Shown here: one piece after another, positions 11,009 through 46,841 of the stretch
Layout: every line of letters starts with the position of its first letter
How positions within the stretch are numbered: the stretch's first letter is position 1
From: Balaenoptera acutorostrata
Taxonomy: Eukaryota; Chordata; Mammalia; Artiodactyla; Balaenopteridae
DNA: 64,000 nt
Assembly: GCF_949987535.1 (NCBI RefSeq)
Contig: NC_080078.1
Location: 49,688,207-49,752,206 of the forward strand
Direction of reading: 5' to 3'
Position numbers and translations under genes: made by a program
The notes under the pieces: generated by a model
Seen by the model: only the letters and a program-made list of their open reading frames with translations
The model's database searches: none
Told to the model about the DNA's origin: nothing

Positions 11009-11059
11009 AAAACACAAGGCATATTTCCATACAAATAACCCAATGAAAGTTTAGTATTC

Positions 11060-11267
11060 GTTGTTTTGTTTGTTTTTTTATACTGCAGGTTCTTATTAGG
11101 CATCAGTTTTATACACATCAGTGTATACATGTCAATCCCAATCGCCCAATTCAGCACACCACCATCCCCACCTCATCGCAGTTTTCCCCCCTTGGTGTCC
11201 ATATGTCCATTCTCTACATCTGTGTCTCAACTTCTGCCCTGCAAACTGGCTCATCTGTACCATTTTT
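11060..11267 (-). repeat. L1-A 3' UTR (inverted)
   Basis: The whale-type young L1 3' UTR: minus strand ends '...actgatgtgtataaaactg' then 'aataagaacctgcagtat' and an A-rich tail at 11060-11079. Immediately beyond it (11022-11059) is the first piece of T1, identical in type to the sequence beyond the L1 end in L1-B. Confidence 0.8.
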
Positions 11268-13253
11268 CTACGTTCCACATACATGCATTAACATACGATA
11301 TTTGTTTTTCTCTTTCTGACTTACTTCACTCTGTATGACAGTCTCTAGATCCATCCACTTCTCAACAAATGACTCAATTTCGTTCCTTTTTATGGCTGAA
11401 TAATATTCCATCGTATATATGTACCACAACTTCTTTATCCATTCGTCTGTTGATGGGAATTTAGGTTGCTTCCATGTCCTGGCTATTGTAAATAGTGCTG
11501 CAATGAACATTCGGGTGCACGTGTCTTTTTGAATTACGGTTTTCTCTGGGTATATGCCCAGTAGTGGGATTGCTGGGTCATATGGTAATTCTATTTTTAG
11601 TTTTTTAAGGAACCTCCATATTGTTCTCCATAGTGGCTGTATCAATTTACATTCCCACCAACAGTGCAAGAGGGTTCCCTTTTCTCCACACCCTCTCCAG
11701 CATTTGTTGTTTGTAGATTTTCTGATGATGCCCATTCTAACAGGAGTGAGGTGATACCTCATTGTAGTTTTGATTTGCATTTCTCTAATAATTAGTGATG
11801 TTGAGCATCTTTTCATGTGCTTCGTGGCCGTCTGTATGTCTTCTTTGGAGAAATGTCTATTTAGGTCTTCTGCCCATTTTTGGATTGGGGTGTTTGTTTC
11901 TTTGATATTGAGCTGAATGAGCTGTTTATATATTTTGGAGATTAATCCTTTGTCCGTTGATTCATTTGCAAATATTTTCTCCCATTCTGAGGGTTGTCTT
12001 TTCGTCTTGTTTATGGTTTCCTTTGCTGTGCAAAAGCTTTGAAGTTTCATTAGGTCCCACTTGTTTATTTTTGTTTTTATTTCCATTACTCTAGGAGGTG
12101 GATCGAAAAAGATCTTGCTGTGATTTATGTCAAAGAGTGTTCTTCCTATGTTTTCCTCTAAGAGTTTTATAGTGTCCAGTCTTATATTTAGGTCTCTAAT
12201 CCATTTTGAGTTTATTTTTGTGTATGGTGTTAGGGAGTATTCTAATTTCATTCTTTTACATGTGGCTGTCCAGTTTTCCCAGCACCACTTATTGAAGAGA
12301 CTGTCTTTTCTCCATTGTATATCTTTGCCTCCTTTGTCATAGATTAGTTGACCATAGGTGCGTGGGTTAATCTCTGGGCTTTCTATCTTGTTCCATTGAT
12401 CTATGTTTCTGTTTTTGTGCCAGTACCATATTGTCTTGATTACTGTAGCTTTGTAGTATAGTCTGAAGTCAGGGAGTCTGATTCCTCCAGCTCCATTTTT
12501 TTGCCTCAAGACTGCTTTGGCTATTCGGGGTCTTTTGTGTCTCCATACAAATTTTAAGATGATTTGTTCTAGCTCCGTAAAAAATGCCATTGGTAATTTG
12601 ATAGGGATTGCATTGAATCTGTAGATTGCTTTGGGTAGTATACTCATTTTCACAATGTTGATTCTTCCAATCCAAGAACATGGTATATCTGTCCATCTGT
12701 TGGTATCATCTTTAATTTCTTTCATCAGTGTCTTATAGTTTTCTGCATACAGGTCTTTTGTCTCCCTAGGTAGGTTTATTCCTAGGTATTTTATTCTTTT
12801 TGTTGCAATGGTAAATGGGAGTGTTTCCATAATTTCTCTTTCAGATTTTTCATCATTAGTGTATAGGAATGCAAGAGATTTCTGTGCATTAATTTTGTAA
12901 CCTGCAACTTTACCATATTCATTAATTAGCTCTAGCAGTTTTCTGGTGGCAGTTTTAGGATTCTCTATGTATAGTATCATGTCATCCGCAAACAGTGACA
13001 GTTTTACTTCTTCTTTTCCAATTTGTATTCCTTTTATTTCTTTTTCTTCTCTGATTGCCGTGGCTAGGACTTCCAGAACTATGTTGAATAATAGTGGTGA
13101 GAGTGGACATCCTTGTCTCGTTCCTGATCTTAGAGGAAATGCTTTCAGTTTTTCACCATTGAGAATGATGTTTGCTGTGGGTTTGTCATATATGGCCTTT
13201 ATTATGTTGAGGTAGGTTCCCTCTATGCCCACTTTCTGGAGAGTTTTTATCAT
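11268..13253 (-). pseudogene. L1-A ORF2 C-terminal half (reverse transcriptase part)
   Basis: An uninterrupted frame of about 660 codons homologous to ORF2p, from just after the RT 'AFDKIQH' region to the normal C-terminus. The catalytic FADD box is encoded at about 12978-12990. The C-terminal Cys-rich motif (CWRGCGEKG...HCWWEC) is present near 11660-11720. The endonuclease domain and RT N-terminal half are missing because the element is 5'-truncated. The open frame continues about 22 codons upstream into the inverted T1 repeat (to 13319), which gives a 683-codon chimeric frame with a non-L1 start. It retains Trp where L1-B has a stop. A dead fragment, but hardly decayed, so the insertion is fairly recent. 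Confidence 0.9.
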
Positions 13254-13590
13254 AAATCTTATATTTGTATTTGTATGGAAATATGTATGGAAATATGTTA
13301 ATATAAAGGTTTCAGACATTACATGAAATTTCTAAAAATCTTATATTTGTATTTGTATGGAAATATGTATGGAAATATGTTAATATAAATGTTTCAGACA
13401 TTACATGAAATTTCTAAAAATCTTATATTTGTATTTGTATGGAAATATGTATGGAAATATGTTAATATAAATGTTTCAGACATTACATGAAATTTCTAAA
13501 AATCTTATATTTGTATTTGTATGGAAATATGTATGGAAATATGTTAATATAAATGTTTCAGACATTACAGGAAACGTCTAAAAATCTTAT
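13254..13590 (+). repeat. 82-bp tandem repeat, about four units
   Basis: The base C in 'aatctt' recurs at 13258, 13340, 13422, 13504 and 13586, an exact 82-bp period. Units are almost identical. The unit contains 'tatttgtatttgtatgg', 'gttaatataaa' and 'cagacattacatgaaatt'. The corresponding T1 region in L1-B (40337-40480) has little more than one unit, so copy number differs between the two insertions. Confidence 0.95.
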
Positions 13591-14275
13591 ATGTTCTGGT
13601 ATAATGTTATAAGTAATAATCCTAGTTATTACTTTAAAATGTATATCTCAGAAATAACTAATTTTCTTGTCAACTGCATTATTATGAACTTTCATCCAAT
13701 CTTTAACCATGGTCATTTTTAAGTCTTTTGTCATTTACAGACAGTTCTGGGTGTACTCTGATGATTTTGCAAATATGTTCCTATAAAAGAGTTTCATCTT
13801 CAAGAAATTCATGGAAAAGACTCTGACAAGTACAGGTTTCTGGTAACTGACTGTACTGCTGAACTGAATGAATAAGCATTTTCAGAACTCTAATGAAAAA
13901 CTGATGAACTCATAAAAGTGCTAACAAAAGATCAAGATGAAAAAAAAGAAATTAATTACATGGGACTGAGTGAACTGATGAGGATGAGTATAATTTTTGT
14001 GACTTTCTGTCTGAATTAAAAAAAAAAAAAATCCCACAAGGACTCAGAGGAAAAGAATATACAAATCAATTTTCACTGCAAAGTAAAGGAGCTGTTACAG
14101 TGGAGGATTACTGGACTGAATGTCAATATTATGATATAGTATAAGTGTGTTTCATGTTTGGTAATTGCAATCATTGTTGCTTTTGTTGTGGTCATCCATG
14201 TACAATGCTTGGTGTCAGTCTATCTATCTCTTGTAAAAATAAAATACAGTGTGTGTGTGTGGAAAAAAAAAAAAA
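13591..14275 (+). mobile_element. T1: shared transduced segment in L1-A
   Basis: Non-L1 sequence nearly identical to the reverse complement of 39663-40320. It shows a splice-acceptor-like pyrimidine-rich stretch ending '...tgtcatttacag' at 13740. A region without long frames follows, then AATAAA at 14238-14243, a (GT)n stretch and an A13 tract (14263-14275). It behaves like the 3' end of a transcript whose poly(A) was copied along with the L1. I do not recognise the source gene. No target-site duplication flanks this internal A-tract, so it is not the end of an independent insertion here. Confidence 0.75.
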
Positions 14276-14991
14276 TCCATATTACATATTACAAATTATA
14301 CCTAACAATACACTCTCACCTGCAGACAAGACTTTTTTGAAAGTCCATGGATTGAAGTAGGAAACGATCAGACTATCTGTGCTGGTCTCCAGGAGATAAA
14401 TTGCACAGCCAGTTAAACTCTAACTGGGTTCCCAGAATCTCACTGCTTCCATATTAAGGATTCAAGATAAAATTGCATTCTCGTAAAGCAGTGGGCCAGC
14501 CTGCTTACCCCAGCTCTGTCTATTACATTTTGATAATGCATTGCATTTAGATACTAACAAAATTAATTAAGTTAAACTCTGTTCATTTTTGGTTTTGCCC
14601 CCAAATTTTCCAAATAACTGCAGACACAGAAAACATTCCCCCTGTACAAACATACACGCACATGCACACAAATTACAGGAAAAGTTTCTCCTTAAAAACA
14701 ACAGGTTTTTTTGTTCATAAAAATTTGGAAAGCTCCCAAATTATTTCCATGAGTCAGACAGCTCTTATTTGGCAGTCAACAACCCCACCATATCGAATCA
14801 AATAATTCTTAATTTTTAACCCATAATAACTTAAAAATTGGTCAGGAAGACAGCTTTTGCTTATTTTTCACTTTGTAATATATTCGGTCAACAAACATAA
14901 GATATCATTTTAAAACTTATATGTTGATAAATTATGAGTTTTCTTAAATAATTAAGTTGAAATAAAAAAAAAAAAAAAAAAAAAAAAAAAA
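14276..14991 (+). mobile_element. T2a: second transduced segment, only in L1-A
   Basis: About 690 bp of AT-rich non-coding DNA between the internal A13 and the terminal A28 tail. Nothing comparable lies at the same point in L1-B. It is read as flanking DNA of the intermediate source copy, carried along in a second round. No strong canonical poly(A) signal is seen at the usual distance; candidates are 'gataaa' at about 14926 and AATAAA overlapping the tail start. Confidence 0.6.
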
Positions 14992-15358
14992 CACAAGGCA
15001 ATGAAATTTTCAACTGCTATCTTCAAAGCACAATGCAGTGGAATTCTTATAATAAAGATCCAGCTAACTAAAAAAAATCAATTTTGTGTCTTTTTATCTT
15101 TGAGCCTTTGAATAATTCACTTAACTGCAAAACAATTTCGACATCAGTTTGCATGAAATAATGATATCCGCCTGGCAGAGTAGTTCTAAGAATTAGAGGG
15201 TGATTAGCTAATGTCTACTGTATAAAAGGATGCAAGCAAGTTTATTTGAGTGCAAATTTATTTATATTTATATAGAAAATATTATAATACTGACATTTTC
15301 TATTTGGCCATATTATAATGTTTACCATGCCTTGAATGTTTGACTATTTCTCTAAAAT

Positions 15359-35890: not shown

Positions 35891-36017
35891 TGGCAGCAGG
35901 AATGTAGCAAGTGCTGGGGGAAGTGACAAGGGAGAGGAAAGGCCCGGAGAACCACCGGAGACTCAAGGCAAGTGTCTGCTCCTTTGTAATTCCCATTGGG
36001 CCTCCTGCATGCATTTT

Positions 36018-36739
36018 TTTTTTTTTTCAGGTTTTAGAAAACTATTTATTAATATGGAAAAAACCTTCATAACATATTATTTAAAGGGGGGTTTTAAAAT
36101 AACATAGAATGCAGAAGTTCACTGTTGTGGGAAAAAACAAACATATACATATGCAATAAAACCAGATGAAGATACTCCAAAATTTAAATAGTGGCTATTA
36201 CTGAGCTGTGATATTATGGGTGATTTTTATTTTCTTCTTGGTGATTATCTGCATTTCTAAAATTCATGAAAATAGTAGACAATGTGCTAATAATACATGG
36301 AATGACCTCATTAAATCTGTGTAACTTTTAAGAACTCTTATAGAAGACCTGAGTTCAAATTCTAGCAACTTCTGTCTTACTGAATTTTGAGAAAGATTCT
36401 AAACTTTCATTTTCTTATCTGTCAAACCAAGATAATAACACATCTACCTCAAATGATTATTATTAGGTTAAACTATGTAATAACTAAGTTCCTGGTATGG
36501 ACCCATGTACCCATTAGGCATTCAATCAATGGCTTTTTAAATTCAATGATAAGGAGTTTGTCCCAAATTTTCAAACACAATCAGAATGAGCATTTGAAAC
36601 AAATATCTGTAGCTCCCAATTGAATAAAGAACATAAAGGTTTGACCTTGTGTTTCACCACTCATCTAAAACAAGTGGGATTTGGCCAAAGTGCAAACCAC
36701 TGCGGCAAACTACTGTGTCTCTCAAGTGCCACAAGTTGC
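36018..36739 (-). mobile_element. T3b: outermost transduced segment
   Basis: About 0.7 kb of non-coding genomic sequence with an MIR at roughly 36380-36530 on the complementary strand ('cattttcttatctgtcaaac' on plus). Its end has AATAAA (complement at 36046-36051) 18 nt before the terminal poly(A). A pre-existing MIR inside it shows this was ordinary genomic flank before capture. Confidence 0.7.
36046..36051 (-). terminator. Terminal poly(A) signal AATAAA of L1-B
   Basis: TTTATT on plus, 18 nt from the T-run that is the poly(A) tail of the insertion. Confidence 0.8.
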
Positions 36740-36764
36740 TTTTTTTTTTCAGAGACATCAATGG

Positions 36765-36770
36765 TTTAAT
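36765..36770 (-). terminator. Internal poly(A) signal ATTAAA closing T2b
   Basis: TTTAAT on plus, followed toward lower coordinates by a T10 run at 36740-36749. Spacing is that of a used polyadenylation site. Confidence 0.65.
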
Positions 36771-37524
36771 GGATGGGGGAGCTTACACGTCTGAATCAGG
36801 GTCCTGGAGCGACACCCTACTGTTTGTAGCAGACGGCGGGCAGGACATGGTGATAGTCATCCCTCCGGGGGAAGGGGAGATTACCAGTTATAGGGGAATT
36901 GATGTCAGGTGGGCTCATTAGTTACCAGGGAAACCAGTAGAAGGGCAAGCCCCTCACCGCCCCTTTGATGAGAACAATCACCAGCTGGCGCCTGGGACAA
37001 GTAGGTAGAAGGTCAGTCGAGTGCTTAGGGTATAGGTGAAGAGGCACTGGTAGGGTGGGGGGATGTACAGAGAGCAAGACAACAGCCATCTTGAGAGGCC
37101 TGACCATACACTCTACCCCTCCATACCCTGCACGACCCTTACCATCTGGGTCCGCCCCTCTTCCGCGATTCCCTGGGGTCACTGCCACCAGACGCCACAA
37201 TACAGTACAGACAGCAGCAGCCGGAGAGCATCAAGAGTTAAGATACCTAGTATACTCAGCACAGTCATTTTTCCAGGATGTGGGCACGTTTTGGAGCCAA
37301 GCATTTACCGGGTCAATGGAAAGGGAGTCAACAGCAGCAGTGCTCTGTCCAGTTATAAGGAAGGTAAGGCCACCCCTAGTTTTCACAAACCCATAGCCAC
37401 CCCCATGGGGAGGGGAAGGCTTGGTTTTAAAAGAAACATTCTGGTGGCCTATCCAGGAGTCAGAGCAGTCAAAGTTTAGGTCTGCTGCCCCATGTTATGT
37501 TGGGTGCCATTAGGGGTGGACCCA

Positions 37525-37880
37525 TTACATCTTTCCAAACAAAAAACAGTTAATCCCAATAGTTGGACTTGCGTATCCAGAAGCCAGCCTGTTCCACTCT
37601 GCGCACATAGCATAGCCCAGGGGGGGCTTGTGAGCAGTCAGTTGTACAGTAACGTTCACCAACAGGGGTCCTTCTGATGTGTTGGCATGTGGAACGGGAA
37701 GGTGGTGAAGTCTTCCCCCATGGTCAGTGGTCTCCACATAGTCACAGTAGCTGGGGCAGTTTTTCATGGAAGTCCAGAGGAGGACAGTGGCATCTCGCTG
37801 TAAACCCAGCAGTCAGACTCATTTCCCAGTGTGGTCAGTGTTGCGGCTGAGTCCTCAAATAGATTTCCTCCCTCAGACGA
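37525..37880 (-). pseudogene. Possible decayed endogenous-retrovirus envelope fragment
   Basis: Two adjoining minus-strand frames. The upstream one (about 37770-37880) contains an Asn-Glu-Ser site followed by CWVY, resembling the CWxC surface-subunit motif of gamma-type envelopes with the second Cys changed. The downstream one (37525-37767, 80 codons) has two more N-glycosylation sites (NTS, NVT) and evenly spaced cysteines. They are separated by a frame break, and stops follow. No polymerase or gag was found beside it. This could instead be an unrelated secreted-protein remnant. Confidence 0.35.
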
Positions 37881-38562
37881 AATGTAAGACATCTAACAGG
37901 CGCAACATGGGAAGATTATGACCATTAAGCAAAATACAAGCAGTAACCCCATGTGAGATAATGCCACACCCACCTGTGGTTTTGTCCTAGTCTGCAAAAC
38001 AGTTCAGAAAACTCAAGTTTTCAGTAATACAGGAACGTGTCCAAAATCACGTATACAATGGCCACCTCATTTTACCTTGGATGTCTGAACCACAGTTACT
38101 CCATTTTGACTTTCAAATGCATTCCCTTCCTCAATGGCCAAAGCAGATGTACAATACATGTCTGAAAGGCCACAAAACAGGCTGCTCTGGTCAGTAAAAT
38201 TTAAGTTAAACCATGTATAAGCCAGAATGACTTCCCCAAACCTCAATATGTGCAGATTTTTCCATCATTTCTCCTTTTGATTGCAAATCTTCCAGTAGAA
38301 AGCACTGATGATCAAAATATTTGTCCCGCGATGCTGGGGTGCTGACTCCTACCCCAGGTTCAGATCATGTTCCTTGGTGCTAGGCCTCCTTTATATTCAC
38401 CTAGTCATTCATGGTGGGGGAAAACTAATCAGATCCCGCTAACAGGCTCAGAGGTATGTTAATGGGGAAACACTATATAGGCCATACATTTTATCACTTC
38501 TACCCAGTTTTCACACAAGCATTGTACACGTGCTTTTAGCAGCAGACTTAAAGCAAGTAGTG

Positions 38563-38754
38563 TCATACTTCAAGAGTAGTTATATCTGTGACAAGTTCAC
38601 TAGATAATTTTCTTTCCATCCAGAACATCAGAGCAGAAGCATGGCTAACACAAGAACTTTCATAAATACAAGTAACAGAACGAGAATTTAACATCCACTG
38701 AAACATAATATTGTTCTCTCTAAAATTACCCTCATCTCCACCAAACACAGCCAA
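38563..38754 (-). pseudogene. Unassigned short open frame in T2b
   Basis: About 63 codons without a clear ATG start and with a plausible protein-like composition (two Cys, two Trp, segments 'MFQWML' and 'MFWMERKL'). No family recognised. It may be part of an exon of the source locus or a chance frame. Confidence 0.25.
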
Positions 38755-39189
38755 TCAAAGCTAATTTGTTTGCAAAATAAGACTAGTCAACTGACCATAT
38801 AGACTCCTGCAAACTGGCTGAGCGGGAACTCCTCAGGAGTCTCAGACTGAATTCCCAAAAGGCCTGTCAAGGCCAGGAAAGCCATGCCAAAGCCCTGTCA
38901 TAAGGCTTCACCTTGGTGCATTTCTCTCTCCTAGAGGTCTCCAAAATATCAAGATTCCAGCACATGCCAGGAGACAGTCTTTCCCATCTGCCTGTTAAGG
39001 CTGCTTGGAACCCAAGAGTCCATTTTCTGGAGGGACCAGGCAGAGAGAAAAGAAAAATATTTCAATTCTCCCCACAGGTGTGGTTTACCCAATTGCTGTA
39101 AGTCAAAACTAAATTGAGGGGAAGGGCTTCCCTCTATCTGGAAAACACAGATCAAAACCAGTAACATTCCAGACAAAACCCATAAAAAT

Positions 39190-39510
39190 TGTAACCATAT
39201 TCACCAGTTCACTCAGTAACCAATCCTTTTGTTAACTTTTTATGAAGCCATCAGTTCTCCCAATAGGATTCTCTAAGTTCTTACCCGGTTCAGCAGTATA
39301 ATCTGAAATTTATCAGACACCTGTTATGGTCAAAAGGTCCTTCCTATGAATCTTCTTGAAGATGAAGCACTTTTGCAAAAGCATCAGAGTATAACAATAA
39401 CTGTCTATAAATGACAAAAGACTTAAAAAGTCACAGTTAAACACCTGATCACAATGTAATTGATAAACAAACTTGGTAACAGAAATTATAACCAATTATA
39501 ATCCTAACCC
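39190..39510 (-). repeat. Diverged relative of T1 inside T2b
   Basis: Aligns in the same orientation with about 39935-40330. Shared are 'caccagttcactcagt'/'catcagttcactcagt', 'gttcagcagta', 'cttgaagatgaa', 'gcatcagagta' and the exact stretch 'aaatgacaaaagacttaaaaa'. The two are clearly paralogous but substantially diverged, so the source locus held a tandem duplication. Confidence 0.75.
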
Positions 39511-39662
39511 TTGAAAACCTTAATCTCTAGCAAAAAACAAGAAGCAAGTAACTGTGATTTCCTGATTGGAAAACTTGATGCTTTAGTCTTCCTCTCCTAA
39601 GCAGGCAAAGGTAGGTAAACTGAGACCCACTCAGCAATTAGTGTTCCAATATTTTTTTTTTT

Positions 39663-40501
39663 ATCCACACACACACACTGTATTTTATTTTTACAAGAGA
39701 TAAATAGACTGACACCAAGCATTGTACATGGATGACCACAACAAAAGCAACAATGATTGCAATTACTAAACATGAAACACACTCATACTATGTCATAATA
39801 TTGACATTCAGTCCAGTAATCCTCCACTGTAACAGCTCCTTTACTTTGCAGTGAAAATTGATTTGTATATTCTTTGCCTCTGAGTCCTTGTGGGATTTTT
39901 TTTTTTAAATTCAGACAGAAAGTCACAAAAATTATACTCATCCTCATCAGTTCACTCAGTCCCATGTAATTAATTTTTTTTTTCATCTTGATCTTTTGTT
40001 AGCACTTTTATGAGTTCATCAGTTTTTCATTAGAGTTCTGAAAATGCTTATTCATTCAGTTCAGCAGTACAGTCAGTTACCAGAAATCTGTACTTGTCAG
40101 AGTCTTTTCCATGAATTTCTTGAAGATGAAACCTTTTTATAGGAACATATTTGCAAAATCATCAGAGTACACCCAGAACTGTCTGTAAATGACAAAAGAC
40201 TTAAAAATGACCATGGTTAAAGATTTGATGAAAGTTCATAATAATGCAGTTGACAAGAAAATTAGTTATTTCTGAGATATACATTTTAAAGTAATAACTA
40301 GAATTATTACTTATAATATTATACCAGAACATATAAGATTTTTAGAAGTTTCCTGTAATGTCTGAAACATTTATATTAACATATTTCCATACATATTTCC
40401 ATACAAATACAAATATAAGATTTTTAGAAATTTCATGTAATGTCTGAAACATTTATATTAACATATTTCCATACAAATAACCCAATGAAAGTTTAGTATT
40501 A
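39663..40501 (-). mobile_element. T1: shared transduced segment in L1-B
   Basis: Nearly identical to L1-A 13254-14262 plus 11022-11059, but with about one 82-bp unit where L1-A has four. It starts right at the A-rich end of the L1 and closes with AATAAA (complement 39684-39689), (GT)n and an A-tract (T-run 39652-39662). On the minus strand it has a splice-acceptor-like 'tttgtcatttacag' (near 40183-40196). This suggests it derives from the last intron and last exon of a transcript. The source is not recognised. Confidence 0.75.
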
Positions 40502-40709
40502 GTTGTTTTGTTTGTTTTTTTATACTGCAGGTTCTTATTAGGCATCAGTTTTATACACATCAGTGTATACATGTCAATCCCAATCGCCCAATTCAGCACA
40601 CCACCATCCCCACCTCACCGCAGTTTTCCCCCCTTGGTGTCCATATGTCCATTCTCTACATCTGTGTCTCAACTTCTGCCCTGCAAACTGGCTCATCTGT
40701 ACCATTTTT
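40502..40709 (-). repeat. L1-B 3' UTR
   Basis: Follows the ORF2 stop and ends in the A-rich stretch 40502-40521. The L1's own end lacks a strong AATAAA here, which would favour read-through into T1. Confidence 0.8.
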
Positions 40710-41315
40710 CTAGGTTCCACATACATGCATTAATATACGATATTTGTTTTTCTCTTTCTGACTTACTTCACTCTGTATGACAGTCTCTAGATCCATCCAC
40801 GTCTCAACAAATGACTCAATTTCGTTCCTTTTTATGGCTGAGTAATATTCCATTGTATATATGTACCACAACTTCTTTATCCATTCGTCTGTTGATGGGC
40901 ATTTAGGTTGCTTCCATGACCTGGCTATTGTAAATAGTGCTGCAGTGAACATTGGGGTGCATGTGTCTTTTTGAATTACGGTTTTCTCTGGGTATATACC
41001 CAGTAGTGGGATTGCTGGGTCATATGGTAATTCTATTTTTACTTTTTTAAGGAACCTCCATATTGTTCTCCATAGTGGCTGTATCAATTTACATTCCCAC
41101 CAACAGTGCAAGAGGGTTCCCTTTTCTCCACACCCTCTCCAGCATTTCTTGTTTGCAGATTTTCTGATGATGGCCATTCTGACTGGTGTGAGGTGATACC
41201 TCATTGTAGATTTGATTTGCATTTCTCTAATAATTAGTGATGTTGAGCATCTTTTCATGTGCTTCGTGGCCGTCTGTATGTCTTCTTTGGAGAAATGTCT
41301 ATTTAGGTCTTCTGC

Positions 41316-41318
41316 TCA
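41316..41318 (-). other. Premature TGA in L1-B ORF2
   Basis: TCA on plus. The equivalent codon in L1-A is TGG (Trp). Downstream frame is unchanged and continues to 40710. Confidence 0.9.
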
Positions 41319-41962
41319 TTTTTGGATTGGGGTGTGTGTTTCTTTAATATTGAGCTGAATGAGCTGTTTATATATTTTGGAGATTAATCCTTTGTCCATT
41401 GATTCGTTTGCAAATATTTTCTCCCATTCTGAGGGTTGTCTTTTCGTCTGGTTTATGGTTTCCTTTGCTGTGCAAAAGCTTTGAAGTTTCATTAGGTCCC
41501 ACTTGTTTATTTCTGTTTTTATTTCCATTACTCTAGGAGGTGGATCAAAAAAGATCTTGCTGTGATTTATGTCAAAGAGTGTTCTTCCTATGTTTTCCTC
41601 TAAGAGTTTTATAGTGTCCAGTCTTATATTTAGGTCTCTAATCCAATTTGAGTTTATTTTTGTGTATGGTGTTAGGGAGTATTCTAATTTCATTCTTTTA
41701 CATGTAGCTGTCCAGTTTTCCCAGCACCACTTATTGAAGAGACTGTCTTTTCTCCATTGTATATCTTTGCCTCCTTTGTCATAGATTAGTTGACCATAGG
41801 TGCGTGGGTTAATCTCTGGGCTTTCTATCTTGTTCCATTGATCAATGTTTCTGTTTTTGTGCCAGTACCATATTGTCTTGATTACTGTAGCTTTGTAGTA
41901 TAGTCTGAAGTCAGGGAGTCTGATTCCTCCAGCTCCATTTTTTTGCCTCAAGACTGCTTTGG

Positions 41963-42315
41963 GGGCTTCCCTGGTGGCGCAGTGGTTGAGAATCTGCCTG
42001 CTAATGCAGGGGACACGGGTTCGAGCCCTGGTCTGGGAAGATCCCACATGCCACGGAGCAACTGGGCCCGTGAGCCACAATTGCTGAGCCTGCGCGTCTG
42101 GAGCCTGTGCCCCGCAACGGGAGGGGCCGCGATAGAGAAAGGCCCGCGCACCGCGATGAAGAGCGGTCCCCGCACCGCGATGAAGAGTGGCCCCCGCTTG
42201 CCGCAACTGGAGAAAGCCCTCGCACGAACCGAAGACCCAATACAGACAAAAATAATAAACAAATAAATAAATAAATTTAAAAAAAAAAGAAAATCCTTTA
42301 AAAAAAAAAAAAAAA
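41963..42315 (+). mobile_element. CHR-type tRNA-derived SINE inside ORF2
   Basis: RNA polymerase III A box tggcgcagtgg (41975-41985) and B box ggttcgagccc (42018-42028) are intact. The body is cetacean-like ('catgccacggagcaactggg', 'cgcaactggagaaagccctc') and the tail is an AAAT/A-rich run. Flanking duplication aagactgctttgg at 41950-41962 and 42316-42328. A short internal duplication ('ccgcaccgcgatgaagag' twice at 42150-42190) is present. Inserted opposite to L1 transcription, hence after L1-B arrived. Confidence 0.95.
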
Positions 42316-44952
42316 AAGACTGCTTTGGCTATTCGGGGTCTTTTGTGTCTCCATACAAATTTTAAGATGATTTGTTCTAGCTCCGTAAAAAATGCCATTG
42401 GTAATTTGATAGGGATTGCATTGAATCTGTAGATTGCTTTGGGTAGTATACTCATTTTCACAATGTTGATTCTTCCAATCCAAGAACATGGTATATCTCT
42501 CCATCTGTTGGTATCATCTTTAATTTCTTTCATCAGTGTCTTATAGTTTTCTGCATACAGGTCTTTTGTCTCCCTAGGTAGGTTTATTCCTAGGTATTTT
42601 ATTCTTTTTGTTGCAATGGTAAATGGGAGTGTTTCTATAATTTCTCTTTCAGATTTTTCATCATTAGTGTATAGGAATACAAGAGATTTCTGTGCATTAA
42701 TTTTGTAACCTGCAACTTTACCATATTCATTAATTAGCTCTAGCAGTTTTCTGGTGGCAGTTTTAGGATTCTCTATGTATAGTATCATGTCATCCGCAAA
42801 CAGTGACAGTTTTACTTCTTCTTTTCCAATTTGTATTCCTTTTATTTCTTTTTCTTCTCTGATTGCCGTGGCTAGGACTTCCAGAACTATGTTGAATAAT
42901 AGTGGTGAGAGTGGACATCCTTGTCTTGTTCCTGATCTTAGAGGAAATGCTTTCAGTTTTTCACCATTGAGAATGATGTTTGCTGTGGGTTTGTCATATA
43001 TGGCCTTTATTATGTTGAGGTAGGTTCCCTCTATGCCCACTTTCTGGAGAGTTTTTATCATAAATGGGTGTTGAATTTTGTCAAAAGCTTTTTCTGCATC
43101 TATTGAGATGATCATATGGTTTTTCTTCTTCAATTTGTTAATATGGTGTATCACATTGATTGATTTGCGTATATTGAAGAATCCTTGCATCCCTGGGATA
43201 AATCCCACTTGATCGTGGTGTATGATCCTTTTAATGTGTTGTTGGATTCTGTTTGCTAGCATTTTGTTGAGGATTTTTCCATCTATATTCATCAGTGATA
43301 TTGGTCTGTAATTTTCTTTTTTTGTAGTGTCTTTGTCTGGTTTTGGTATCAGGGTGATGGTGGCCTCATAGAATGAGTTTGGGAGTGTTCCTTCCTCTGC
43401 AATTTTTTGGAAGAGTTTGAGAAGGATGGGTGTTAGCTCTTCTCTAAATGTTTGATAGAATTCACCTGTGAAGCCATCTGGTCCTGGACTTTTGTTTGTT
43501 GGAAGATTTTTAATCACAGTTTCAATTTCATTACTTGTGATTGGTCTGTTCATATTTTCTGTTTCTTCCTGATTCAGTCTTGGAAGGTTATACCTTTCTA
43601 AGAATTTGTCCATTTCTTCCAGGTTGTCCATTTTATTGGCATAAAGTTGCTTGTAGTAGTCTCTTAGGATGTTTTGTATTTCTGCGGTGTCTGTTGTAAC
43701 TTCTCCTTTTTCATTTCTGATTTTATTGATTTGAGTCCTATCCCTCTTTTTCTTGATGAGGCTGGCTAATGGCTTATCAATTTTGTTTATCTTGTCAAAG
43801 AACCAAGTTTTAGTTTTATTGATCTTTGCTATTGTTTTCTTTGTTTCTAGTTCATTTATTTCTGCTCTGATCTTTATGATTTCTTTCCTTCTGCTAACTT
43901 TGGGTTTTGTTTGTTCTTCTTTCTCTAGTTTCTTTAGGTGTAAGGTTAAATTGTTTACTTGAGATTTTTCTTGTTTCTTTAGGTAGGCTTGTATAGCTAT
44001 AAACTTCCCTCTTAGAACCACTTTTGCTGCATCCCATAGGTTTTGGGTCGTCGTGTTTTCATTGTCATTTGTCTCTAGGTATTTTTTTATTTCCTGTTTG
44101 ATTTCTTCAGTGATCTCTTGGTTATTTAGTAACGTATTGTTTAGCCTCCATGTGTTTATCTTTTTTACGTTTTTTTCCCTGTAATTCATTTCTAATCTCA
44201 TAGCGTTGTGGTCAGAAAAGATGCTTGATATGATTTCAATTTTCTTAAATTTACTGAGGCTTGATTTGTGACCCAAGATGTGATCTATCCTGGAGAATGT
44301 TCCGTGCGCACTTGAGAAGAACGTGTAATCTGCCGTTTTTGGATGGAATGTCCTATATATATCAATTAAATCTATCTGGTCTATTGTGTCATTTAAAGCT
44401 TCTGTTTCCTTATTTATTTTCATTTTGGATGATCTGTCCATTGGTGTAAGTGAGGTGTTAAAGTCCCCCACTATTATTGTGTTACTGTCGATTTCCTCTT
44501 TTATAGCTGTTAGCAGTTGCCTTATGTATTGAGGTGCTCCTATGTTGGGTGCATATATATTTATAATTGTTATATCTTCTTCTTGGATTGATCCCTGGAT
44601 CATTATGTAGTGTCCTTCCTTGTCTCTTGTAACATTCTTTATTTTAAAGTCTATTTTATCTGATATGAGTATAGCTACTCCAGCTTTCTTTTGATTTCCA
44701 TTTGCATGGAATATCTTTTTCCATCCCCTCACTTTCAGTCTGTATGTGTCCCTAGGTCTGAAGTGGGTCTCTTGTAGACAGCATATATATGGGTCTTGTT
44801 TTTGTATCCATTCAGCCAGTCTATGTCTTTTGGTTGGGGCATTTACTCCATTCACGTTTAAGGTAATTATCGATATGTATGTTCCTATGACCATTTTCTT
44901 AATTGTTTTGGGTTTGTTTTTGTAGGTCCTTTTCTTCTCTTGTGTTTCCCAC

Positions 44953-45858
44953 TTAGAGAAGTTCCTTTAGCATTTGTTGTAGAGCTGGTTTGGTGGTGCT
45001 GAATTCTCTTAGCTTTTGCTTGTCTGTAAAGCTTTTGATTTCTCCATCAAATCTAAATGAGATCCTTGATGGTTAGAGTAATCTTGGTTGTAGGTTCTTC
45101 CCTTTCATCACTTTAAGTATATCATGCCACTCCCTTCTGGCTTGCAGAGTTTCTGCTGAGAAATCAGCTGTTAACCTTATGGGAGTTCCCTTGTATGTTA
45201 TTTGTCGTTTTCCCCTTGCTGCTTTCAGTAATTTTTCTTTGTCTTTAATTTTTGCCACTTTGATTACTATGTGTCTCGGCGTGTTTCTCCTTGGGTTTAT
45301 TCTGTATGGGACTCTCTGCGCTTCCTGGACTTGGGTGGCTATTTCCTTTCCCATGTTAGGGAAGTTTTCGACTATAATCTCTTCAAATATCTTCTCTGGT
45401 CCTTTCTCTCTCTCTTCTCCTTCTGGGACCCCTATAATGCGAATGTTGTTGTGTTTAATGTTGTCCCAGAGGTCTCTTAGGCTGTCTTCATTTCTTTTCA
45501 TTCTTTTTCCTTTAGTCTGTTCCGTAGCAGTGAATTCCACCATTCTGTCTTCCAGGTCACTTATCCGTTCTTCTGCCTCAGTTATTCTGCTATTGATTCC
45601 TTCTAGTGTAGTTTTCATTTCAGTTATTTTATTGGTCATCTCTGTTTGTTTGTTCTTTAATTCTTCTAGGTCTTTGTTAATCATTTCTTGCATCTTCTCA
45701 ATCTTTGCCTCCATTCTTATTCCGAGGTCCTGGATCATCTTCACTATCATTATTCTGAATTCTTTTTCTGGAAGGTTGCCTATCTCCACTTCATTTAGTT
45801 GTTTTTCTGGGGTTTTTTCTTGTTCCTTCATCTGGTACATAGCCCTCTGCCTTTTCAT
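44953..45858 (-). pseudogene. L1-B ORF1 (RNA-binding chaperone), one premature stop
   Basis: ORF1p is the trimeric RNA-binding protein that packages L1 RNA. An N-terminal coiled coil (about residues 35-115, heptad-like 'MEAKIEKMQEMINKDLEELK') is followed by the RRM ('NNIRIIGVPEG') and the C-terminal domain ('RHIVIKVAKIKDKEKLLKAA', 'ADFSAETLQARREW'). TAA at 45073-45075 cuts the protein to 261 residues. The same frame continues as PSRISFRFDGE... to a natural stop at 44953, so the intact length would be 301 residues. The stop removes about 39 residues of the C-terminal domain. Confidence 0.92.
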
Positions 45859-46000
45859 CTTCTCTGTCTTTCTGTAACTGTGGTTTTTGGTCCACAGGCT
45901 GCAGGATTGTAGTTTTTCTTGCTTCTGTTGTCTGCCCTCTGGTGGTTGAGGCTATCTAAGAGGCTTGATGGGAGGCTCTGGTGGTGGGTAGAGCTGACTG

Positions 46001-46150
46001 TTGCTGTGGCGGTCAGAGCTCAGTAAAACCTTAATCCACTTGACTGTTGATGGGTGGGGCTGGGTTCCCTCCCTGTTGCTGTGGCGGTCAGAGCTCAGTA
46101 AAACCTTAATCCACTTGACTGTTGATGGGTGGGGCTGGGTTCCCTCCCTG
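46001..46150 (-). repeat. 75-bp exact tandem duplication in L1 5' UTR
   Basis: Units 46001-46075 and 46076-46150 are identical base for base. Each contains 'ggcggtcagagctcagtaaa' and 'gggtggggctgggttccctc'. The lengths, divisible by 3, leave surrounding frames open, but I see no coding role. Confidence 0.95.
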
Positions 46151-46803
46151 TTGGTTGTTTTGCCTGAGGCAACCCAACACTGGCGCCTACCCGTGCTCTT
46201 TGGTGGGGTTAATGGCAGACTCTGGGAGGGCTCACGCCAAGGAGAACTTCCCAGGACCTCTGCTTCCAGTGTCCTTATCCCCACGGTGAAACAGAGCCAC
46301 CACTTGCCTCTGCAGGAGACCCCCCAACACCAGCAGGTACGTCTGGTTCAGTCTCCCCCAGGATCACTGCTCCTTCCCCTGGGTCCCGATGCACACATTA
46401 CTTTGTGTGTGCCCTCCAAGAGTGGGGTCTCTGTTTCCCCCAGTCCTGTCACAGTCCTGCAATCAATTCCCACTAGACTTCAAAGTCTGATTCTCTAGGA
46501 ATTCCTCCTCCCGTTGCCGGACCCCCAGGTTGGGAAGCCTGACGTGGGGCTCAGAACCTTCACTCCAGTGGGTGGACTTCTGTGGTATAAGTGTTCGCCA
46601 GTCTGTGAGTCACCCACCCAGCAGTTATGGGATTTGATTTTACTCTGATTGCGCCCCTCCTACCGTCTCACTGTGGCTTCTCCTCTGTCCTTGGACGTGG
46701 GGTATCCTCCTTGGTGAAGTCCAGGGTCTTCCTGTCAATGATTGTCCAGCAGTCAGTTGTGATTCTGGTGCTCTCGCAAGAGGGAGTGAGAGCACGTCCT
46801 ACC

Positions 46804-46814
46804 CCGCCATCTTG
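46804..46814 (-). promoter_or_regulatory. YY1-like site at L1 transcription start
   Basis: CAAGATGGCGG on the minus strand, 11-21 nt from the element's 5' end. This is the place and sequence of the YY1 site that positions L1 transcription in other mammals. Confidence 0.7.
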
Positions 46815-46841
46815 GTTAATCTCCCCTCCTGCATGCATTTT

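Follow-up and report, generated by a model that had tools for sequence, protein, structure and literature searches.

The 64,000-nucleotide stretch of Balaenoptera acutorostrata DNA that we analysed (hereafter, the window) holds at positions 36001 to 46841 one LINE-1 (L1) insertion on the minus strand, which we call copy A and which lies as a whole inside an exact 17-bp target-site duplication (TSD). An initial annotation of the letters had described it as a single L1 with captured DNA at its 3′ side, and this description is upheld by the exactness of the TSD and by Pfam matches in the L1 body to domains of open reading frame 1 (ORF1) and to the endonuclease and reverse transcriptase of ORF2. 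For comparison, among 20,000 pairs of 40-bp pieces drawn at random from the window, 16 had at least 17 bases in common; this control takes in simple repeats and pieces that overlap. The non-L1 DNA amounts to ~4.5 kb and runs, from the 3′ end of the L1 body at ~40502, through an extension named T1, a tract of 11 adenines (A11), a segment T2b, a tract of 10 adenines (A10), and a segment T3b to the terminal poly(A) tail. That this tail, at the far end of the non-L1 DNA, comes with an AATAAA signal was already noted in the initial annotation and is indeed the case; the signal lies upstream of the tail, in T3b. Both ORF1 and ORF2 of copy A are shortened by a stop, and ORF2 is further split by a short interspersed element (SINE) that is missing from the two relatives described below (copy B and the sibling on contig C1).

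We searched the assembly to which the window belongs (2.77 Gb in 1,374 contigs, labelled C1, C2, and so on) and found that T2b and T3b lie together elsewhere as native DNA. T3b was full-length in three of its nine matches (window, C1:198.43 Mb, and C2:101.61 Mb), the remaining six being short matches of 39 to 99 bases, and T2b lay alongside T3b at all three full-length places; among the matches listed, each of the two segments had three places at 99 to 100% identity. Contig C2 carries T2b and T3b uninterrupted, with 9 mismatches in 3,629 bases and no gap, A10 included. The two ends of the match, one of them the T2b boundary at ~C2:101,617,100, fall at the T1 poly(A) and at the terminal tail, and past each of them C2 goes on with different native DNA. 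Since C2 thus has T2b, A10, and T3b as one continuous native stretch, T2b and T3b are a single 3.6-kb capture, taken in one piece from one place. Here the initial annotation had counted three rounds of capture, of T1, T2b, and T3b, each marked by an A-tract. The positions of the two internal tracts were given correctly, while their reading as capture marks fails for A10, which is native at C2; nor did the separate searches of T1, T2b, and T3b yield the predicted pair of donors, with L1+T1 before T2b at one locus and T2b before T3b at another. The opposite option, that the A-tracts belong to separate nested insertions, is ruled out at A10 by the gap-free match. Within T1 there are two further T-runs, of 11 at 39896-39906 and of 10 at 39974-39983, so that an A-tract alone is weak evidence of capture. 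The case thus corrects an attractive three-step history, and A-tracts by themselves should not be counted as captures.

We rejected the idea that the C2 locus is itself an insertion, because it has no tail and the native DNA flanking it on either side is unrelated. In this assembly, neither L1+T1 nor a terminal poly(A) stands at the C2 junction. The nearest L1 in the stretch of C2 that we read lies 1,014 bp upstream and was rejected as donor, being 93% identical and without T1.

Table 1. Features of copy A and copy B, in window coordinates.
Feature	Position	Strand	Remarks
Copy B, second L1+T1 insertion, twin-primed	11009-15000	+	13-bp TSD 11009-11021 / 14988-15000
Copy B, inverted L1 and start of T1	11022-13253
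Copy B, T1	13254-14262		followed by A13
Copy B, T2a	14276-14963		followed by terminal A27
TSD, 3′ side of L1	36001-36017		exact 17-bp match to 46825-46841
Terminal poly(A) tail	36018-36027	-	T-run at which the alignment with native C2 DNA ends
T3b, native flank of the C2 source locus	36028-36739	-	three full-length places: window, C2, C1
A10 tract, native to the C2 source	36740-36749	-	present at C2
LTR-like terminal unit, ~361 bp	36750-37110	-	many T2b match rows are confined, or almost so, to query 1-361
Rest of T2b, internal part of the same retrovirus-like family as the ~361-bp unit	37111-39651	-	internal and terminal parts recur close together elsewhere
Poly(A) tract (A11) ending T1, then first bases of the C2 source	39652-39662	-	T-run scan and C2 alignment
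T1, 3′ extension with AATAAA and ~2 units of an 82-bp repeat	39663-40502	-	exact 3′ end recurs genome-wide
Full-length L1 body	40503-46824	-	ORF1 and ORF2 Pfam domains
SINE in ORF2	41963-42315		13-bp TSD 41950-41962 / 42316-42328
TSD, 5′ side of L1	46825-46841		exact 17-bp match to 36001-36017

The captured T2b appears to be retrovirus-like DNA, judging from its repeated ~361-bp unit, which resembles a long terminal repeat (LTR), and from internal and terminal parts that recur near each other at C15:76.63, C13:96.32, C2:166.78, and C28:26.41 Mb. Pfam matched none of the eight translated pieces of T2b, and a PDB search with two T2b pieces gave best E values of 0.24 and 0.43; since no retroviral protein domain was thus recognised, we use only the term retrovirus-like. 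A10 appears to be an A-tail at the polyadenylation site of the LTR-like unit, with the rest of the LTR missing. Among five relatives of T2b that we read, an A-rich tail occurs at this point or shortly after it in three (L004-L006), and two (L007, L008) run past it into sequence common to both. A retrovirus-like RNA was thus probably copied by an L1 at some earlier time, A10 being the tail of that copy, whose processed nature we infer from this arrangement.

The junction between L1 and T1 has a different standing, as T1 is the 3′ end of a young L1 subfamily and is not private to copy A. A search with T1 returned 468 candidates, of which the best 40 were scored, all at 99 to 100% identity. Genome-wide, 29 bases from the T1 3′ end have 3,749 exact matches, by which T1 marks a subfamily; 29 bases from the 3′ end of this L1 variant have 3,480 exact matches, and the reversed control has 0 in either case. 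These exact-match counts are lower bounds and do not put T1 on every L1 of the variant, some of which end without it. In the part of C1 spanned by both lists of matches, 42 of 87 L1 ends have a T1 end 0.77 to 1.59 kb further on in the same strand, and 42 of 100 T1 ends are preceded by such an L1 end. The distances from L1 end to T1 end elsewhere cluster at steps of ~82, and T1 contains an 82-bp tandem unit, in ~2 copies in copy A and in 4 in copy B (13254-13592). On top of this subfamily end sits copy A's own capture, T2b+T3b. A family with 3,749 exact T1 ends lets donors and offspring be paired, which makes read-through, loss of source elements, and exchange of templates measurable.

Copy B, which sits 21 kb from copy A, shows the same composition with a different cargo. 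BLAST of the pieces of copy A against the window recovered L1 and T1 again at 11020-14263, at 97.8 to 99.5% identity and in opposite orientations. T1 and its poly(A) are common to both copies, and the segment that follows differs: in copy B it is T2a, for which the only other place found was C1:32,895,291-32,895,975, without L1+T1 beside it. Given the shared T1 and the differing DNA behind it, L1+T1 existed as a unit before either T2a or T2b was joined to it, and the claim of the initial annotation that L1+T1 predates the addition of T2b is borne out by this and by the number of T1 ends.

T1 and T2b contain collinear stretches in the same orientation (T1 39912-40207, T2b 39170-39429), of 223 and 49 bp at 70% and 80% identity. 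Related retrovirus-like DNA may have given rise to both, and in view of these stretches T1 is itself probably captured DNA. An exact-pattern search for a founder (native) T1 locus, with three candidates read among the matches listed, did not find one; the three were a 111-bp T1 fragment without a tail, a T1 end cut by a SINE, and an L1+T1 copy. The titles and abstract openings of the literature on whale L1s held nothing that we judged relevant to T1, from which we draw no conclusion on the published record of T1.

The only sibling with T2b+T3b that we found is the copy on C1 (L018), which lies entirely within a TSD of 14 exact bases and consists of a 5′-truncated L1, T1, T2b, T3b, an A-run, a 465-bp L1 3′ end 98.9% identical to that of copy A, and a further A-run. 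In the cargo, T2b+T3b, copy A and the C1 copy differ at 14 of 3,623 sites (0.39%), with 3 changes found in copy A alone and 11 in C1 alone, besides 6 that set C2 apart from both; in L1+T1, they differ at 96 of 5,847 sites (1.64%; Fisher test, 4e-9). By the same comparison of L1+T1, copy A differs by 1.33% from a full-length donor on C28 and by 1.42% from one at C2:56.13 Mb (both described below), and C1 by 1.45% and 1.49%, respectively; in L1+T1 the pair is therefore as far apart as copies without kinship. T1 alone gave 6 differences between copy A and C1 and 3 to 7 between copy A and 29 other loci, and reveals no special kinship of the two. Given 0.39% in the cargo and 1.64% in L1+T1, the L1 body and the cargo have separate recent histories in copy A and C1, a discordance that concerns the pair and not whether either copy is an ordinary transduction. 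A control pair, C2:56.13 and its offspring on C17, was concordant (L1 21/5,382, cargo 8/2,728; Fisher test, 0.56), and the pair C28/L039 was uninformative (12/2,039 and 0/187). There may be an assembly joining error at C1. If such discordance is general, a transduction tag does not always point to the parent L1, contrary to what is assumed in tracing source elements.

The L1 3′ fragment behind the A-tract in the C1 copy starts at the same A-run of ORF2 as a similar fragment in L037 (GACACATGC and GATACATGC), and we regard this A-run as a hot spot for insertion or template switching.

We further read 30 of the best 40 T1 matches, copy A included, which are the most copy-A-like places and not a random sample. 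Among the 29 others, 11 show the 5′ breakpoint of the L1, with a TSD directly after the T1 tail that is clear in five and probable in one, a TSD after a few extra bases in two, one ~296 bp further on, and none found in two. For 18 of the 29 we looked for other places of the segment that follows T1, the 11 left out being repeats or settled by their TSD. A further captured segment was found in five of the 18 (L031, L034, L039, L040, and L048); one (L050) is a donor whose flank is carried by another copy; in one (L047) the segment is a repeat; and for 10 there was no second place among the best 40 scored rows. At L036, the remaining one of the 18, a stretch of 101 bases from behind T1 has an identical second copy at a distance of 2.7 kb, on the L1 side (C23:6226839 and C23:6229530), which may be a target-site duplication of >100 bp.

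For cargo behind T1 we thus know eight sources. Two hold a full-length L1+T1, and the six belonging to copy A, copy B, L031, L034, L040, and L048 are empty. The first filled donor, C28:18.56 Mb, has a 17-bp TSD and a SINE in its T1, and five other places have T1, this donor's flank, and an A-rich tail. The second, C2:56.13 Mb (L050), has a 15-bp TSD, and the C17 copy carries its flank for 2.7 kb, followed by an A-tail. In both donors, ORF1 (301 codons) and ORF2 (1,272 codons) are open. The ordinary route of transduction is thereby shown in this lineage. At the empty sources, the A-run at the start of the cargo is preceded by TT or TC in four of six cases, against a background of 19.1% for A-runs pooled from the window and the six loci (binomial, 0.014), and as a group these sites look as expected for L1 endonuclease sites. 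In L031 and L040, the T1 tails consist of repeated AAAAC, letters that are also found at the start of the native source, as if the tails had grown by slippage on the target sequence.

The best explanation, and to our judgement a fairly probable one, is read-through transduction from C2 followed by a re-pairing of the cargo with a different L1+T1 through a template switch. An L1 of the young subfamily whose members often end in T1 would have inserted into the old processed retrovirus-like copy on C2. Its transcript would have continued beyond the signal in T1 and taken in the end of the retroviral copy together with A10, before ending at an AATAAA in the flank. The 3.6 kb of T2b+T3b would then have been copied in one piece and have landed in the window with its 17-bp TSD, and the L1 that we infer for C2, missing from this assembly, would have been lost or reside on another haplotype. 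The re-pairing would have come about by a switch of the reverse transcriptase between templates at the poly(A) between T1 and T2b, leaving copy A and the C1 sibling as the two pairings; we favour such a switch as the simplest course, because it is one event and explains the shared junction. Copy A is then a genuine, long 3′ transduction of a known kind, although probably a parentless one. More tentatively, and with somewhat less than even confidence, the poly(A) left inside an L1 by an earlier capture could act as a point of exchange, open during reverse transcription to every polyadenylated L1 RNA. Captured 3′ cargo would then pass on independently of the L1 body that had acquired it, the two reassorting as modules.

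Several observations weigh against this explanation. In the sibling, the recent histories of L1 body and cargo differ; the source on C2 lacks L1+T1, as do five of the seven other sources found; the source of copy A is not among the four with TT or TC, having AT before its A-run (TTTT/AT on the nicked strand); and the letters GGAT precede the A-run at C2 as well as the poly(A) of T1 in copy A, which, as a coincidence, fits template switching better than insertion by the endonuclease. Not everything in this history is accounted for by simple serial transduction, since the L1 expected at C2 is absent from the assembly and the L1 and cargo of the sibling are discordant. Two L1 insertions at the same C2 nucleotide were judged too unlikely.

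A rival explanation is an RNA chimera formed with no L1 at C2, where target-primed reverse transcription began on a polyadenylated C2 RNA and jumped, at the A-run, to an L1+T1 RNA by way of its poly(A) tail, with copy A and C1 as two independent jumps. Such jumps would account for the empty C2, the unrelated L1+T1 parts of the two copies, the GGAT before the A-run in both the C2 source and T1, and the extra 465-bp L1 3′ end that is joined at an A-run in C1, and one report discusses how the L1 reverse transcriptase can switch templates (PMC13174262). They would, however, have to hit the same nucleotide twice, and the junction tract counts 11 adenines in copy A and 9 in C1 versus 4 in the source; together with the two filled donors, which demonstrate ordinary transduction in the same lineage, and the likeness of the source sites as a group to endonuclease sites, this renders the chimera unlikely. 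Read-through from C2 might alternatively have been followed by gene conversion of the L1 body in one of the copies, for which partners are plentiful (3,480 exact L1 3′ ends). Conversion would need to have replaced nearly the whole L1 while sparing T2b+T3b, and the differences between copy A and C1 are spread along 5.8 kb, with one low bin of 500 columns (1/500) and 4 to 15 differences in the other full bins, so that we deem it improbable. Least credible, indeed barely so, are three successive rounds, T1, T2b, and T3b: the three A-tracts behind poly(A) signals that suggest them are outweighed by the contiguity of T2b, A10, and T3b at C2, by the presence of T2b at every full-length T3b, and by the unrelated, tailless surroundings of the C2 locus.

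Somatic L1 transductions reach several kilobases. Copy A resembles the L1 3′ transductions of human, other primates, and dog, in which L1 and downstream DNA end in a poly(A) after a downstream signal and are surrounded by one TSD; in copy A, a single TSD encloses the L1 and its 3′ DNA, and the cargo maps to a native locus that continues past the poly(A) site. Published reports allow for a comparison of frequency and length: a 5′ or 3′ transduction accompanies 466 of 5,311 human polymorphic L1 insertions (8.8%; PMC12350158), and lengths of 8 to 997 bp were given in a short-read human map whose authors noted the limit of the method (PMC9311842) and of 51 to 1,570 bp in a long-read validation set (PMC4862182), compared to 3.6 kb for the cargo of copy A. 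A source locus without an L1 in the assembly resembles the parentless 3′ transductions of the dog, where the reference had a LINE-1 within 50 bp for 3 of 27 (PMC12458276) and one case was explained by a segregating full-length L1 (PMC13103737). Unlike in those cases, the empty sources, six of eight, occur here within one lineage that already carries T1, in one genome. With the L1 chimeras containing U6, Alu, or mRNA, for which template switching or RNA ligation is proposed in PMC13174262, copy A shares the enclosure of unrelated RNA and L1 in one TSD; the chimeras described there have the other sequence 5′ of the L1, whereas here it is the L1+T1 body that was seemingly exchanged upstream of an inherited cargo.

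A scan against Rfam gave no hits, and a tRNA scan gave one, with undefined anticodon. The 5′ region of the L1 in copy A contains an exact 75-bp tandem duplication (45998-46153), and the same repeated matches occur in both full-length donors.

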